A stretch of 53,292 nt of DNA from Megasphaera sp. NM10. Lineage in GTDB: Bacteria > Bacillota > Negativicutes > Veillonellales > Megasphaeraceae. The stretch is from positions 3 to 53,294 of the forward strand of contig NZ_APHY01000001.1 in the NCBI RefSeq assembly GCF_000417505.1. Direction: 5' to 3'. Below, one piece after another: positions 9,634 through 43,466 of this stretch. The notes beneath the pieces were generated by a model. It saw only the letters and a list, made by a program, of their open reading frames with translations, ran no database searches and was not told the origin of the DNA. The first letter of the stretch is position 1. Every line of letters starts with the position of its first letter. Both the position numbers and the translations under genes were made by a program.

Positions 9634-11795
9634 ATGTCATTCAACAAGGACCGCGTGATGCAGGAACTGCAGCGTTTTGGCGGCGCTATGTACACACCGG
9701 TCATCTTATTCGCCTTCTTCGGGCTGACTGTCGCCTTGTCGATCATCTTCAGCAATACGGGCCTCTTCGGCAGCCTGGCAGAAAAAGGGACCCTCTGGTA
9801 TGATTTCTGGTACGTCGTCCAGCAGGGCGCCTGGACCGTCTTCAATCAGATGCCGATCCTCTTTGCCATCGCCGTTCCCATTGGCTTTGCCAAGAAAGAA
9901 CAGGCCCGCTGTGCCATGGAAGGTTTCGTCATCTACATGGTATTTAACTATTTCATCGCCGGTATCCTGACCCTTCACGGCAGCTACTTCGGCGTCGACT
10001 ATAGTCAGAACGCCGGTGCCGGCACGGGCCTGGCCATGATTGCCAACATCAAGACCCTGGACATGGGCATGCTCGGCGCTATCTTCATTGCCTGCATCTC
10101 GGCCTACCTGCACAACCATTTCTATGATACGGAAATCCCGGACTGGCTCGGCATCTTCAAGGGACCGGCCTTCGTCGTCGCCGTCGGCTTCCTGGTCATG
10201 CTGCCCATGGCGCTCCTCTTCTGTTACATCTGGCCGCCTATCCAGCACGGTATCGAACAGTTCCAGTTCTTCCTCAAGACCAGCGGCATCTTCGGCGTCT
10301 GGGCTTACACCTTCTCGGAACGCATTCTCTTGCCGGCAGGCCTGCATCATTTTATTTACCTGCCCTTCATTTACGGTCCGGCTGTCTGCGACGGCGGCAT
10401 CCAGGCTTACTGGCTGCAGCACCTCAATGATTTCGCCACCAGTGCTCATTCCTTGCGGGACATGTTCCCCCAAGGCGGCTTTGCCCTCCACGGCAGTGCC
10501 AAAGTCTTCGGCCTGCCCGGCGCAGCCTGGCCATGTACTATTGTGCCAAACCGGAAAAACGCAAGAAAGTCGCAACCCTGCTCATTCCGGCTACGATTAC
10601 AGCCGTCCTCTGCGGCATTACCGAACCGATTGAATTTACCTTCTTGTTCGTCGCTCCGCTCTTGTACGTCGTCCATGCCGTCTTAGCGGCTACCTTGTCG
10701 GCGACGCTCTATTTCATCGGCCTGTCGGGCAACTTCGGCGGCGGCCTCATCGACTGCTTCGTCCAGAACTGGATCCCCTTGTTCCGCTATCATGCCTGGA
10801 CCTACATTTTGCAGATTGCCATTGGCCTCGGCTTTACGGCCATTTACTTCGTCGTCTTCCGCTTCCTCATCCTTCACTTCGATTTGCCCACGCCGGGCCG
10901 TACCGATGATGGCGGCGAAGACAAATTGTTCACCAAAGCGGAATACAAAGCCAAGAAAGAAATGGAAAAGAAAGGCATTGCCGGCGGTGCCGATGCCCTG
11001 AAAGCCCAGGTCTTCCTCGATTGCCTCGGCGGTCCGGATAACATCCGCGAAGTCACCAACTGCGCAACCCGCCTGCGCGTCACGGTCAACGACCCGGATA
11101 AGGTCGCTGCGACCAGCAAGTTCACCAATGCCGGTGCCTTTGGCCTGGTCAAGAACGGCCACGCCATCCAGGTCATCGTCGGCCTGTCCGTGCCCAATGT
11201 CCGCGGCCACTTCGACGCCCTCATGAAAGGGGAAATGCCGGCAGCCGTAGAAAACACGGTTCCGGAAACGAAAGAAGCCTCGGCAGAAACGCCGGCAGCT
11301 CCGGCTGCTGAATCCATCGCTTCCGTCGATGAAGACGACCGTTCCATGAAGCTGAAAGCCTTTGTCTCCGGCGACCTCGTCGACATCAGCGAAGTACCGG
11401 ACGATGCCTTCTCGCAGAAGATGATGGGCGATGGCGTCGCTATCAAACCGTCGGGCGATACCATCGTCGCCCCGGCAGACGCGACCGTTTCCATGATCAT
11501 GGAAAGCTCGCTCCATGCGATTGGCCTGGAACTGAGCAACGGTGCCGAAGTGCTCATCCACATCGGCTTGGATACAGTCAATATGAATGGCGACGGGTTC
11601 ACGCTGCTGACCCAGCAGGACGCCCAGGTCAAAGCCGGTGACCCCTTGATCCGCTTCGACCGCGATGCCATCGCCAAAGCCGGCTATAACGACATCGTCA
11701 TCATGGCCGTCACCAACTCGACGGAATACCCGCAGATGAAGAAGGAACCGGACCAGCCTGTCGTCGCTGGTGAAACACCGATTGTCATTTTCTAG
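9634..11795 (+). pseudogene. alpha-glucoside PTS EIICBA, one-base frameshift
   Basis: Phosphotransferase transporter that imports and phosphorylates an alpha-glucoside. The EIIC membrane domain begins MSFNKDRVMQELQRFGGAMY and has HHFIYLPFIYGP; EIIB carries the phosphocysteine in TNCATRLRV; EIIA (glucose type) carries the active His in LIHIGLDTVNMNG. The IICBA order and length (720 aa when repaired) match MalX/AglA-type proteins. The frame breaks at about 10527: GLPGAA should continue ALAMYYCAKPE, which needs one more base (GCC TGG for GCC CTG G). Both halves are otherwise intact, with normal codon use and no other lesion, so a sequence error or a very recent mutation is likely. If real, it would cut EIIC and silence uptake. 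The start follows GGGAGGAA, and the next gene starts 9 bases after the stop. Confidence 0.88.
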
Positions 11796-11804
11796 GAGGG
11801 TTTT

Positions 11805-13472
11805 ATGGATACTTTGAAATGGTGGCAGCAGACGGCTGTCTATCAGATTTATCCCCGCAGCTTCCAGGACACGACGGGCAGCGGCGAAGGCGATATTGCA
11901 GGCGTTACGCGCCACTTGGATTATCTCAAGAAGCTCGGTGTCGGGGCCATCTGGCTGACGCCGGTCTACCCGTCGCCCATGGTCGACAACGGCTACGATA
12001 TCAGCGATTATACGGCCATCGACGGGCGCTACGGCACGATAGAAGATATGGATACCCTCATTGCCGAAGGGAAGAAGCGGGATATCCGCGTCGTCATGGA
12101 CCTGGTGTACGACCACACGTCGGACCAGCACGCCTGGTTCCAGGAATCGATGCGCAGCAGCACGAACGACAAAGCGGACTGGTACATCTGGCGCGATGCC
12201 AAAGAAGACGGCTCGGCGCCGACGAACTGGCGCTCCATCTTCGGCGGCCCGGCCTGGACGTGGTGCGAAGAACGGCAGCAGTATTACCTGCACACCTTCG
12301 CCGTCGAACAGCCCGATTTGAATTGGGAAAATCCGGCCGTCCGCCAGGCCCTCTATGATGCGGCCAATTTCTGGATAGCCAAAGGCGTCGGCGGCTTCCG
12401 CATCGATGCCATCGTCTACATCAAGAAACCGGCCGTCTTCACAGACGGCCCCGTCGACGGCGCCGACGGCCTGTCGTCCATCCACAAGATGATCGCTAAT
12501 ACGCCGGGCATCCTCGACTTTCTCCACGAATTCCGCCGGAAGGTCTTCGACGGCCACGATATCTTCACCGTCGCCGAAGCCAACGGCGTCACGCCGGCTG
12601 ACCTGCCCCAGTGGGTCGGTAAGGACGGGGCTTTCAGCATGCTCTTCGAGTTCAGCCATGTGAACCTGGAATTTCCTGACGATGAAGTCTGGTGCCGCGC
12701 TGAAAAATGGCCCCTGACCAAGCTCAAGAAGGCCCTGTCCGACAGCCAGCAGGCGACGGCAGCCAATGGCTGGTATCCCATCTTCTTCGAGAACCACGAC
12801 CAGATACGCTGTGTCAACCGTTATTTCCCGGAAGGGACGGATAAGAAGAAGGCGGCCAAAGCCATGGCGACCATCTTGTTCAGCCTGCGCGGGACGCCCT
12901 TCATTTACGAAGGCCAGGAATTAGGCATGGCCAATACGGCCTTTGCCCGTATCGAAGACTACAATGACATTTCGACGCACGGCCAGTATCAGCTGGCCCT
13001 GGATGAAGGCTTTGCACCGGCAGAGGCCCTGCACCTCGTCCAGGCCCACAGCCGAGATAATGCCCGGACGCCCATGCAGTGGACGACGGCAGCCCAGGCC
13101 GACTTTACGACGGGGACGCCGTGGCTGCCCGTCCATGACGATTACCTGCAGTGCTGTGCTGAGAGCGAAGAACACGATGCTGATTCGGTCCTCTGGTACT
13201 ACCGCCGCATCCAGGCCGAACGCTTCCAGGGGGAAGCGGCAGCCATCCTGCAGCGAGGGCGCTACGAAGAGCTGCTGGCTGATGATGAACGCATTTACGC
13301 TTTCAAGCGTATCTTAGACGACCAGGCGACATTGACGCTGGTCAATTTTACCAACGAAACCATCGATTATGACGCATCGCTGACGGAAGGCGCAACGGTC
13401 CTTCTGGGCAACTACGACGCCCAGGAAGCCGGAAGATTGCGCCCGGCCGAAGCCGTCATCTATCGTGTATGA
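11805..13472 (+). CDS. GH13 alpha-glucosidase (oligo-1,6-glucosidase type)
   Basis: Cytoplasmic retaining glycosidase, 555 aa, complete. Catalytic residues by family motifs: nucleophile Asp201 in GGFRIDAIVYIKK, acid/base Glu258 in TVAEANG, and Asp332 in FFENHDQIR. WWQQTAVYQIYPRSFQD at the N terminus is standard for GH13 subfamily 31. The residue after the nucleophile is Ala; in this subfamily Val there is associated with alpha-1,6 preference and Ala with alpha-1,4, so maltose-type substrates are favoured (inference from family work). No signal peptide. It lies between the PTS and HAD genes with gaps of 9 and 11 bases, so it probably hydrolyses the imported, perhaps phosphorylated, disaccharide. 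Trehalose-6-phosphate hydrolase is the main alternative. Confidence 0.9.
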   Translation: MDTLKWWQQTAVYQIYPRSFQDTTGSGEGDIAGVTRHLDYLKKLGVGAIWLTPVYPSPMVDNGYDISDYTAIDGRYGTIEDMDTLIAEGKKRDIRVVMDLVYDHTSDQHAWFQESMRSSTNDKADWYIWRDAKEDGSAPTNWRSIFGGPAWTWCEERQQYYLHTFAVEQPDLNWENPAVRQALYDAANFWIAKGVGGFRIDAIVYIKKPAVFTDGPVDGADGLSSIHKMIANTPGILDFLHEFRRKVFDGHDIFTVAEANGVTPADLPQWVGKDGAFSMLFEFSHVNLEFPDDEVWCRAEKWPLTKLKKALSDSQQATAANGWYPIFFENHDQIRCVNRYFPEGTDKKKAAKAMATILFSLRGTPFIYEGQELGMANTAFARIEDYNDISTHGQYQLALDEGFAPAEALHLVQAHSRDNARTPMQWTTAAQADFTTGTPWLPVHDDYLQCCAESEEHDADSVLWYYRRIQAERFQGEAAAILQRGRYEELLADDERIYAFKRILDDQATLTLVNFTNETIDYDASLTEGATVLLGNYDAQEAGRLRPAEAVIYRV

Positions 13473-40278: not shown

Positions 40279-40361
40279 AATTTGTACGAATTAATGCGCC
40301 CCTCTATATTTAGGGCGGCCAATCGTTGTATAATATAAAGTAGAATGGAGGAGGGATGGTT

Positions 40362-41537
40362 ATGGCACGGCGATGGATCATGCATGTCGATATGGATGCG
40401 TTTTATGCTTCTGTAGAACAACGGGATAATCCGGCCCTGAAGGGCCTGCCGGTCATCGTCGGCGGCCTGATGGAGCGGGGCGTCGTCGCGACGGCGTCTT
40501 ATGAAGCCAGGGCTTATGGCGTCCATTCGGCCATGAGCATGAAACTGGCCCGCAGGCTCTGTCCGAATGGCGTCTTCCTGCCTGTGCGCATGTCCCATTA
40601 CCGGCGTATTTCCCATCAGATACGCCTGATCCTGTCCCATTACTCGCCCTTCATCGAACCGCTGGCCCTGGATGAGGCCTTCCTCGACGTCTCCGGCATG
40701 GAGCGCCATTATCCGGATATCGTCGACATGGGTAAAGCCGTAAAGGAAGAAATACGGCGGACGACGGGCCTCGTCGCATCGGCTGGGATAGCACCGAATA
40801 AGTTCCTGGCCAAACTGGCATCGGACCTTCGCAAACCGGATGGCCTGGTCTGGATTCCCTATGGGACTGAGCGGCAGATATTGGCACCCTTGCCGCTGAG
40901 CCGCCTGTGGGGCGTCGGCAAGGTGACCGAAGAGGCCCTGCAAAAAGCGGGCTATCATACTATCGGCGACATCGCCGCGGCCAGTCCCGAAACGCTCCAG
41001 CCCATCGTAGGCAATCAGGCCCAGCGGATTTACCGCTTGTCCCTGGGCCAGGATAACCGGCCGCTGGAAGTACGGCGGCGGCCCCAGTCTGTCGGCAATG
41101 AGCATACGTACAGCCATGACCTGACGCGCGACGCCGAAGTGGATGAACAGTTCCGCCTCCTGGCCAACGAAGTGTCGTGGCGGCTGCGGCAGAACCGGCT
41201 CATGGGACGGATCATCACCATCAAGATACGCTATACCTCTTTCAAGACCATTACCCGCTCTTTGACGCTGCACAGCATAGGGACCTGTTCGGAAGAACAG
41301 TTATATTTTTCGGCAAAAAAATTGTATAATAAGAGCAGAGGTCATGAGCCCATCCGCCTCCTGGGCCTGACGGTCAGCCAGCTCCAGGCCTATCAGGTGC
41401 AGGGCGACTTGTTCTCGGAAGATGAAGAGACGAAGGCGAAAGTGACGGAAGCCATCGACAAGCTGCAGAAACGCTTTGGCCGCACGGCCATCATGAAAGG
41501 ATTTCTTTGGGAAATGTCCCATGAAAAAGATACATAA
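40362..41537 (+). CDS. dinB: DNA polymerase IV (Y family)
   Basis: 391-residue error-prone polymerase for lesion bypass. Catalytic metal ligands Asp10 (MHVDMDAFYASVE), Asp104 and Glu105 (LALDEAFLDVSG); steric-gate region FY at 14-15; thumb helix-hairpin-helix LSRLWGVGKVTEEALQKAGY; little-finger domain; and a sliding-clamp binding motif QGDLF about 30 residues from the end. The ATG at 40362 is favoured over one two codons upstream because of distance to GGAGG. It overlaps the reading frame of the next small gene's leader but not its chosen start. No LexA box was recognised. Confidence 0.93.
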   Translation: MARRWIMHVDMDAFYASVEQRDNPALKGLPVIVGGLMERGVVATASYEARAYGVHSAMSMKLARRLCPNGVFLPVRMSHYRRISHQIRLILSHYSPFIEPLALDEAFLDVSGMERHYPDIVDMGKAVKEEIRRTTGLVASAGIAPNKFLAKLASDLRKPDGLVWIPYGTERQILAPLPLSRLWGVGKVTEEALQKAGYHTIGDIAAASPETLQPIVGNQAQRIYRLSLGQDNRPLEVRRRPQSVGNEHTYSHDLTRDAEVDEQFRLLANEVSWRLRQNRLMGRIITIKIRYTSFKTITRSLTLHSIGTCSEEQLYFSAKKLYNKSRGHEPIRLLGLTVSQLQAYQVQGDLFSEDEETKAKVTEAIDKLQKRFGRTAIMKGFLWEMSHEKDT

Positions 41538-41562: not shown

Positions 41563-41850
41563 ATGGCAATTTTTAAAGTAGCTGCCCACACGGGTGATAA
41601 CAACAACGGGTACATCGAATACGATACAGAGACGAAAGAACTCGGCGTCCACTTGAACGACGACGTCATGAATGAACGGGCCCGCCAGTATTTGACGACA
41701 GAAAAAGTCTTGCACCAGTATACGGATTTAGCGCAGTATAAGACCATCAGCACCGTCCCGACATCGAGCCTGGAAATGCTGAAACTGGCCTTGTGCTATA
41801 TCTGGCGGGCTACGGGCATCCACATTGACTGGAGCCGCCCTGTCGATTAA
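41563..41850 (+). CDS. small protein of unknown function
   Basis: 95 residues, MAIFKVAAHTGDNNNGYIEY to IDWSRPVD, soluble and acidic. No family is recognised. The start at 41563 is chosen because AAGGAG lies 7 bases before it; the frame also runs upstream into dinB. Spacing of 25 bases from dinB suggests co-transcription. It ends just before the DnaA-box cluster. Confidence 0.65.
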   Translation: MAIFKVAAHTGDNNNGYIEYDTETKELGVHLNDDVMNERARQYLTTEKVLHQYTDLAQYKTISTVPTSSLEMLKLALCYIWRATGIHIDWSRPVD

Positions 41851-41882
41851 GGGATAAGCCTCCACCATAATCTATGAACAAT

Positions 41883-42247
41883 TTATCCACATTTCATGTG
41901 CACAAGGGTGACAGAAATGTGGATATTTTTTTTGTGAAGCGCACGGTTATGCTGATTTTTTCAGGTGCATACTTTTTGGGGATTCGCAGGGGAAATGTGG
42001 ATAACTTTCGTGGATAAATGTGTACCTCCGGTGAAAACGGCCTGAAAACGGGATGATTACGCGATTTATAATGGACGAACAAATGGCGCAGATAATGTGC
42101 ATAATTCCTGAGAAAATGTGGATAAATGTTCTCGGCAATTTATGCACAATATGTGGATACATTGTGGAAAGGTATACACAGGTGGACAAAGCATAAAATA
42201 GCCATTCTGACAGTGTGTACACAACTTATCCACTTCATTTATCCACA
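41883..42247. other. cluster of ten DnaA boxes (oriC-like or DnaA-titrating locus)
   Basis: Six perfect matches to TTATNCACA: plus strand at 41883, 42140 and 42239; minus strand at 41996, 42096 and 42117 (start positions). Four with one mismatch at 41918, 42009, 42152 and 42226, and a further GTATACACA at 42172. All lie in 365 bases with no gene. Six perfect sites in this length are far beyond chance. The stretch is mixed in composition with T-rich runs (41926-41932) but no long A+T region was seen. No dnaA or dnaN is in the window. Confidence 0.8.
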
Positions 42248-42269: not shown

Positions 42270-42278
42270 TGGTATACT
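42270..42278 (+). promoter_or_regulatory. extended -10 promoter of nagA
   Basis: TGGTATACT is an extended -10 (TGn-TATACT) 34 bases before the nagA start; TTCCAC at 42250-42255 could be a weak -35 with 17-base spacing. Confidence 0.6.
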
Positions 42279-42311: not shown

Positions 42312-43466
42312 ATGAAAGCTATCATCGACGGACTCATTGTCCTGCCGAACGAAATCATTAACGGTCACGTCATTATGTATGAAAAGGATATCTGGCGCAT
42401 CGTACCGCGCAAGCAGTTCCGGGCCGGCATGTGCTCGGAATTCATTGATGCCAATGGCGGCTTCGTCGTACCGGGATTCATCAATGAACACATCCACGGC
42501 TGTGCCGGTGCCGACACTATGGATGACGATGACCAGGCCCTGAAGACCATGCAGCAGGCCCTGCCGGCGACGGGCGTTACGTCCTTCGTACCGACGACGA
42601 TGACTATGGAACAGGGACGCATCGAGAAAGCCCTCAGCCGGATTCGTCAGGCCCGGGACGACTATCAGGGCGGCGCCCAGGTATTGGGCGCTCATATGGA
42701 AGGGCCTTTCATCAGCCCGGCCTACAAAGGCTCCCAGGCGGAAGAAAATATCCAGACTGCCGATTTTTCCTGGCTCGAACCATATGCCGACGTCATCAAG
42801 ATCATCACCTTGGCACCGGAAACATTGAAGAACAAGAAATTCCTGAAGGACTGCCAGGACCACGGTATTATCGTGTCCATCGGGCACACGGCGGCCGATT
42901 TCGACCAGGCCATGGACTGCATGGACGCCCTCGGCAGCTGCCATGTTACGCATTTATATAATGCTATGACGCCGTTCCACCATCGCAGACCCGGTGTCGT
43001 CGGCGCGGCCCTGCTCCATAAGGGCGCCTGCTGTGAATTGATCTGCGACGATTTGCACGTCCATCCGGCAGCGCAGAAACTGGCCTATCAGATGAAAGGC
43101 CGCGACGGCCTCATCCTGGTCACCGACTCGTTGCGGGCCTGCCTGCAGGGCGATGGCGAATCCAGCTTGGGTGGCCAGAAAGTCTTCGTCAAGAATGGTG
43201 AAGCCCGCCTGGCTGACGGGACCCTGGCTGCCAGTATTGCCCCCATGAACGAAGTGGTCCTCCATTTCCTCATCAATTCCGGCGCCTCCATTCCCGATGT
43301 CGTCGCCATGGCTACGGTCAACCCGGCCAAAGCCCTCGGTGTCTACGACCGCATCGGTTCTCTGGAAGAAGGGAAGCAGGCGGACATTACCATCCTGGAC
43401 AGCAACGATTTCCATGTAAAACAGACGGTCATCGCCGGGGAGCTGGCATATAATGAAGAAGCCTAA
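42312..43466 (+). CDS. nagA: N-acetylglucosamine-6-phosphate deacetylase
   Basis: 384-residue metal-dependent amidohydrolase that makes glucosamine 6-phosphate and acetate. Signatures: GFINEHIHGCAGADTMD, GAHMEGPFISPAYKGSQ with the metal-ligand Glu, IGHTAADFDQA, THLYNAMTPFHHRRPGVVGAAL, and the catalytic Asp in ILVTDSLRA. AGGAGG precedes the ATG. The nagZ-like gene starts before this one ends (14-base overlap), so the pair is co-translated and probably serves recycling of cell-wall GlcNAc. No nagB is nearby. Confidence 0.92.
   Translation: MKAIIDGLIVLPNEIINGHVIMYEKDIWRIVPRKQFRAGMCSEFIDANGGFVVPGFINEHIHGCAGADTMDDDDQALKTMQQALPATGVTSFVPTTMTMEQGRIEKALSRIRQARDDYQGGAQVLGAHMEGPFISPAYKGSQAEENIQTADFSWLEPYADVIKIITLAPETLKNKKFLKDCQDHGIIVSIGHTAADFDQAMDCMDALGSCHVTHLYNAMTPFHHRRPGVVGAALLHKGACCELICDDLHVHPAAQKLAYQMKGRDGLILVTDSLRACLQGDGESSLGGQKVFVKNGEARLADGTLAASIAPMNEVVLHFLINSGASIPDVVAMATVNPAKALGVYDRIGSLEEGKQADITILDSNDFHVKQTVIAGELAYNEEA

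Follow-up and report, generated by a model that had tools for sequence, protein, structure and literature searches.

Known clusters of DnaA-binding sites outside the replication origin act by titrating DnaA, by speeding up ATP hydrolysis (datA) or by recharging DnaA (DARS), according to the available parts of the papers that describe them (PMC5742627, PMC5295017, PMC12371093, PMC4585315, PMC5010248, PMC4447404, PMC10950094). In the portions that we drew on, two reviews regard the clusters of Bacillus subtilis as datA-like and credit the B. subtilis and Streptomyces clusters with the repression of untimely initiation (PMC5742627 and PMC4585315), whereas the sections used of another state that the six B. 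subtilis clusters matter strongly only if all of them are removed and that their role in initiation is not significant (PMC5295017). Since the reviews disagree on the B. subtilis clusters, a single cluster such as the one analyzed here could have a small effect.

The window, by which we mean the whole stretch of 53,292 bases that was analyzed, comes from a 2.61-Mb draft genome made up of 174 contigs (hereafter the source genome). Two Megasphaera records, at 85% identity, are the nearest named relatives that its nagA identified, and we regard the genus as Megasphaera-like. It contains seven perfect TTATNCACA boxes compared with 1.19 expected, a number reached in none of 100 shuffled sequences, and six of the seven lie close together (41883+, 41996-, 42096-, 42117-, 42140+, and 42239+). 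Six one-mismatch boxes fall within the same interval, 41883-42247 (41897-, 41918-, 42009-, 42152-, 42172+, and 42226+). Window-wide, one-mismatch boxes number 37, near the shuffle mean of 32.3, and the clustering is thus the unusual part. The 480 bases 3' of a small gene hold 12 boxes with at most one mismatch, compared with a shuffle mean of 1.04 and a largest shuffle value of 4 (none of 200 shuffles reached 12); the runner-up among separate 400-base windows across the 53,292 bases holds three. The earlier note had reported six perfect boxes and at least four one-mismatch boxes in these 365 bases, in both orientations, between a small gene and nagA. Our recount recovered all six perfect boxes at the same coordinates, found six one-mismatch boxes and boxes on both strands, and agreed with the placement between the two genes in the source genome. 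The observation of a dense DnaA-box cluster at 41883-42247 is confirmed. The parts of the locus and their conservation among the 17 genomes of the family (f1) are as follows, with "kept" used for a box that has no more than one mismatch in the genomes counted:

40356..41537, plus strand: dinB (DNA polymerase IV), the syntenic anchor of the cluster; linkage seen in G004 and family f3
41563..41850, plus strand: gene for a 95-aa protein (the small gene), directly 5' of the cluster in 17/17 family genomes (broken in G003)
41872..41880, plus strand: box A1, degenerate with two mismatches, 11 bases before A2; kept in 11/17 family genomes
41883..41891, plus strand: DnaA box A2, perfect; kept in 17/17 (17-genome alignment)
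41884..41933, plus strand: 12-bp hairpin stem formed by boxes A2 and B (41884-41895 pairs with 41914-41925), then 8 T
41897..41905, minus strand: one-mismatch box, 21 bases from B; kept in 6/17
41918..41926, minus strand: box B, one mismatch; kept in 15/17
41996..42004, minus strand: box C, perfect; kept in 16/17 and perfect in 14
42009..42017, minus strand: one-mismatch box adjoining C, found in some close relatives
42096..42104, minus strand: box D, perfect; kept in 13/17
42117..42125, minus strand: box E, perfect, 21 bases from D; kept in 13/17
42140..42148, plus strand: perfect box; kept in 7/15 genomes with letters there
42152..42160, minus strand: one-mismatch box, found in some close relatives
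42172..42180, plus strand: one-mismatch box, found in close relatives
42226..42234, plus strand: box F, one mismatch; kept in 15/17
42239..42247, plus strand: perfect box adjoining F, found in close relatives
42312..43466, plus strand: nagA, the far-side neighbor here and in 10/17 family genomes (a fragment only in G005)

The small gene was recovered in all 17 family genomes, and in each of them the 480 bases 3' of it contain 6 to 15 boxes that are perfect or have a single mismatch, above all 200 shuffles. Boxes A2, B, C, D, E, and F stay in register across the 17-genome alignment, with a recurring order of plus-strand boxes (often two, 11 bases apart), minus-strand boxes including a pair spaced by 21 bases, and then a plus-strand box. 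The same-strand spacings that recur among the 17 clusters are 11 bases (15/17), 21 bases (10/17), and 100 bases (8/17). Alignment identity was 0.91 in the 46 box columns and 0.57 in the 246 others of the 17 genomes, a contrast that is biased because box content decided which columns were compared and the aligner could bring boxes into line; our claim of conservation rests on the shuffle counts and not on this contrast. With clusters in 17/17 family genomes and boxes in register, the comparison with relatives that had been proposed as a check came out in favor of the locus. Chance, repeat expansion, or contamination as the source of the boxes has a negligible probability and is refuted by this conservation, as the cluster stands at the same place in every family genome, each time above all shuffles. 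The 95-aa protein had no match in Pfam or NCBIfam, and an Rfam search for an RNA element gave a single match, below the gathering score of that family. A TGA interrupts the small gene in G003 (L113), where the adjoining box cluster is retained.

The gene beyond the cluster is nagA in ten genomes; in the others, named by eye from protein starts, it is a convergent nagB in G004, a LysR-type gene in G015 and G016, and a transporter gene in G003, G007, G008, and G014. In G004, where 7.6 kb separate the cluster from nagA, two genes converge on the cluster, and the outermost of its perfect boxes reaches into the end of nagB. Genes of amino-sugar or sialic-acid type, as judged by eye, occupy the 7.6 kb that separate nagA from the cluster in that genome (L092:7209-14560). 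Since the far-side gene varies among relatives, the element belongs to the dinB side and is neither a nagA element nor a nagA promoter, and the regulation of nagA as the main reason for conservation was ruled out by the changing far-side gene together with the G004 layout.

These neighbors bear on the possibility that the boxes serve transcriptional control, with DnaA regulating nagA (or dinB or the small gene) or with the inverted boxes acting as a terminator. DnaA of B. subtilis is a transcription factor at some sites, as stated in the literature (PMC4447404/PMC10950094). A promoter-like -10 sequence, TATACT, lies at 42273-42278, just beyond the last boxes, but such matches are no commoner here than in shuffles (3 found, 2.6 expected), and the cluster lies 3' of dinB and the small gene, not 5' of them. 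A further argument for this reading is the stem of A2 and B with its run of T, which has a folding energy of -22 kcal/mol (z -4.1); hairpins of -12.9 kcal/mol or below occur at this place in 13/17 family genomes. The consensus terminator scan, with a loop limit of 8, listed none at the A2/B hairpin. The hairpin with its 8 T is probably the end of the dinB–small gene transcript, and the double role of A2 and B as a terminator stem in most family members could alone keep those two boxes. However, a terminator accounts for only two boxes, as C to F lie outside the hairpin, and the box clusters remain in G004, G014, G015, and G016, where the hairpin is weak (above -9 kcal/mol). Given the variable far-side gene and the convergent 3' ends in G004 as well, we consider transcriptional control an unlikely explanation of the cluster as a whole.

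The earlier note had also proposed that the cluster could be the chromosome origin, placed away from dnaA. The dense boxes in both orientations fit an origin or a second origin, and in the 668 kb of G002 that were scanned the cluster is the densest box window. The dnaA gene of the source genome, however, lies on contig C16 with perfect boxes at both ends (11322-11476 and 13074-13156), and its dnaN side (dnaN recognized by eye) has a 50-base stretch of 82% AT and a trio-like repeat, TAGTAATAG, whereas the window cluster reaches at most 68% AT in 50 bases and has no threefold TAR repeat, that is, no DnaA-trio. This dnaA, with boxes on both sides, has a two-part layout similar to the one described for B. 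subtilis in the review sections available (PMC5295017/PMC5742627).

GC skew was sampled in relatives with complete or nearly complete chromosomes, in 20-kb samples and in 15-kb samples at each dnaA. It is negative before dnaA and positive after it in G013 and G004, where the change falls at 1435-1450 kb (cluster at 1591 kb) and at 1225-1240 kb (cluster at 1040 kb), respectively; the first sample of G004 (+0.019) breaks the pattern at the far end. G002 has a weak skew, but its genes go from mostly minus-strand to mostly plus-strand around dnaA, at 850 kb, and from 600 to 700 kb, the part that includes the cluster, the strand bias is mixed. The skew and dnaA check named in the earlier note thus put the sign change at dnaA, 149 kb (G013) and 193 kb (G004) away from the cluster, which lies well inside one arm. 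With a box-flanked, AT-rich site at the dnaA of the source genome and the skew or gene strand of relatives switching at dnaA, the proposal of an origin away from dnaA did not hold up, and we regard it as very improbable.

Although it is apart from the origin, the cluster is near it wherever both could be placed. Its distance from dnaA is 166 kb of 2.479 Mb in G002, 149 kb of 2.653 Mb in G013, 193 kb of 2.649 Mb in G004, 106 kb of a 1.61-Mb contig in G007, about 114 kb in G014, and 52 kb in G008, which corresponds to 2.9-7.3% of the chromosome (or contig) in 6/6 genomes with both on one contig (some of the genome sizes are rounded). In the other 11, including the source genome, cluster and dnaA fall on separate contigs or, in G012, dnaA was incompletely found. 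The cluster is on the side that dnaA is read towards in four of the six and on the opposite side in G013 and G008, as symmetric inversions would give, so that the kept distance is weak evidence of selection; it is partly kept through whole-chromosome synteny. In the 668 kb of G002 the cluster holds 15 boxes in its densest window compared with 9 and 8 in the two halves of oriC, and in the 435 kb scanned in each of G013 and G004 it ranks second, behind one oriC half. It is the single cluster besides oriC in the scanned stretches of these three genomes and in the list of perfect boxes of the source genome.

We then compared the other families of the order. In family f3, a cluster of 7 or 8 boxes with at most one mismatch lies 1.2-1.6 kb behind dinB in 4/4 genomes, 13-25 kb from dnaA, with a 21-base same-strand pair in three of them; the small gene had no match in this family. 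No cluster was found near dinB in 11/11 genomes of family f2 (in stretches of 6 to 12 kb; the twelfth genome, G028, had no dinB match), nor did a genome-wide scan for TTATCCACA reveal one in two f2 genomes. Given f2, the element may not be universal in the order. In family f4, a cluster near dinB was found in 0/5 genomes. The 400 kb around dnaA of G054, a member of f4 (genus g13), contain three dense windows, namely both sides of dnaA and a stretch behind the small gene; the latter cluster, observed in this single f4 genome, is 18 kb from dnaA and has 11 boxes in 167 bases, one of them perfect.

The f4 genus g12 has a different arrangement. A cluster behind the small gene was seen in 0/13 of its genomes and none exceeded its shuffles, so that this place in g12 served as a control for the family f1 clusters; the 480 bases 3' of the small gene contain no perfect box and at most three one-mismatch boxes. 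Instead, 7 to 10 boxes with at most one mismatch lie within 250 bases inside a gene for an RluA-family pseudouridine synthase in 12 of the 13 genomes in which that gene was found (G046 lacks the array, and G040 had no match to the gene). Two of the arrays and the place of the others are:

L171:5014-5130: box array of G049
L172:5652-5787: box array of G044
L199-L210: ten further arrays, at loci among these

The boxes of the g12 array follow each other at steps of 12, 21, 21, 21, 21, and 12 bases exactly in 10 of the 12 arrays, with deviations in G041 and G042, and encode a run of VD(N/K/I)xxxx heptads that spans 49 residues (57 in G042), within limits that we set ourselves. Valine in this insert is encoded by GTG in 90/108 cases versus 72/292 elsewhere in the same genes, an excess that is expected if the DNA letters matter. 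Aspartate codons carry no weight, as GAT makes up 66/74 in the insert and 251/307 elsewhere, with no clear difference. Among 15 other f4 genomes with the pseudouridine synthase gene, there were at most two boxes per 250 bases. With the contigs taken as circular, dnaA and the array are separated by about 208 kb in G049 (10.2%) and by 254 kb in G044 (12%). As a separate observation, the perfect box at C16:11468-11476 (L034:8469-8477) overlaps the last codons of the dnaA of the source genome; there it encodes the C-terminal VDN of the protein, and VDN is also what boxes encode in the g12 insert.

The loss of the cluster behind the small gene and the gain of an array elsewhere in g12 fit a single function that moved, and independent histories are also possible. 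Tentatively, and with odds that we put a little short of even, the order may have inherited one dinB-tied, origin-proximal DnaA sink, which g12 lost and rebuilt as an in-frame array of 21-base period that inserts about 49 residues with VD(N/K/I) heptads into the pseudouridine synthase. If true, this would make the locus a replication-timing element under selection strong enough for its re-creation, even within an open reading frame. The small gene, which is present in 44 of 61 genomes of the order, was considered as a required partner of the cluster and rejected: 13 g12 genomes have the gene but no cluster behind it, and f3, which keeps the cluster, gave no match to the gene.

The two remaining proposals of the earlier note were a datA-like titrating locus and a reactivating locus. 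In the latter case the cluster would resemble a DARS site, at which ADP-DnaA assembles and is recharged with ATP. Opposed plus- and minus-strand boxes are present here, and another lineage could use a different DARS geometry that is hidden from a scan for exact offsets. However, the core geometry of DARS (offsets of 14 and 26, opposite orientation), searched at exact offsets only, is absent from 17/17 family clusters; the script recovered it at both E. coli DARS1 and DARS2 as a control. A DARS-like locus was therefore not borne out and appears improbable. As to datA, the exact IHF-binding consensus, WATCAANNNNTTR, occurs in none of the 17 family clusters, so that the locus is not a member of datA proper, while the working mode suggested for it stood, in view of the conservation, the box density, and the proximity to oriC. 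The absence of both the DARS geometry and an exact IHF consensus favors titration by an early-replicated sink.

To judge from its sequence, the feature is of a known kind, the extra-origin DnaA-box cluster, and we infer its function. With a probability of roughly two in three, the locus of about 380 bases is a conserved non-coding regulatory site, predicted to bind DnaA, that stands apart from oriC (and near it, where measurable) and works in the manner of datA or of the B. subtilis clusters, probably through titration. DnaA would bind the cluster in number. The fork would pass soon after initiation and double the copies of the cluster, and free DnaA would be taken up (initiator titration); a head-to-tail DnaA oligomer assembled on the same-strand boxes may add to this effect by promoting ATP hydrolysis. 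Active DnaA would then drop, and the next initiation would be delayed.

The DnaA of the source genome keeps the box-recognition motif RDHTTVMHAC. A profile search found a single PF00308 protein and hence no Hda-type protein in this genome, Hda presumably being a protein that would match PF00308, an assumption on which its absence depends. Weak extra PF00308 matches occur in G001, G002, G004, G009, and G013, and the absence of an Hda-like protein thus holds for the source genome only. YabA was found in 0/9 genomes, with B. subtilis as a positive control. With neither an Hda-type protein nor YabA in the source genome, we would guess that such a DNA site could take a larger share of the control here than it does in E. 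coli or B. subtilis.

For the timing of replication in bacteria without the brakes Hda (E. coli) or YabA (Bacillus), a single conserved site near oriC that is easily deleted or moved would offer a clean test of initiator titration. The comparison across families adds natural experiments, with a site that has changed place or disappeared. In the open literature, judged by titles and the beginnings of abstracts, we found no study of such clusters or of replication timing in Megasphaera, Veillonella, or Negativicutes, and no fitting paper on DnaA boxes together with a pseudouridine synthase. As far as our searches go, the lineage, the layout, the linkage with dinB, and the apparent move into coding sequence are undescribed.

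Compared with the described systems, the locus shares with E. coli datA (DDAH) its nature as a non-coding box cluster outside oriC, on one arm and duplicated early, as set out in the parts of two reviews available to us (PMC5742627, PMC5295017), and a conserved relative distance from oriC, as given in the available part of a third (PMC4585315). The essential boxes of datA all point one way according to the same portions of the first two (PMC5742627, PMC5295017); here both orientations are conserved, with boxes B to E all on the minus strand and A2 and F on the plus strand, whichever of these may be the essential ones. The locus has 12 near-consensus boxes, whereas the same scan of an 18-kb E. 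coli stretch that includes the datA area gave no more than 4 in any 400 bases, and it differs from datA in lacking the exact IHF consensus, although degenerate sites or another bending protein are possible. E. coli DARS1 and DARS2 likewise have opposed DnaA boxes in non-coding DNA, but their three-box core, with box I opposed to boxes II and III at fixed spacing, recurs in 0/17 clusters here. Dense canonical boxes outside oriC and closeness to oriC, the marks of the B. subtilis DnaA-box clusters (DBCs), are both found at this locus, and the early initiation that follows DBC removal, as reported in the review sections used (PMC5295017/PMC5742627), is consistent with a holding of DnaA; there are six clusters in B. 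subtilis and one here besides oriC, and the likeness rests on the description in the review. Similarly likened by description, the cluster of Streptomyces coelicolor (Smulczyk-Krawczyszyn 2006, as summarized in the available parts of reviews) lies near oriC, as the present locus does where measurable, and is said to repress untimely initiation.
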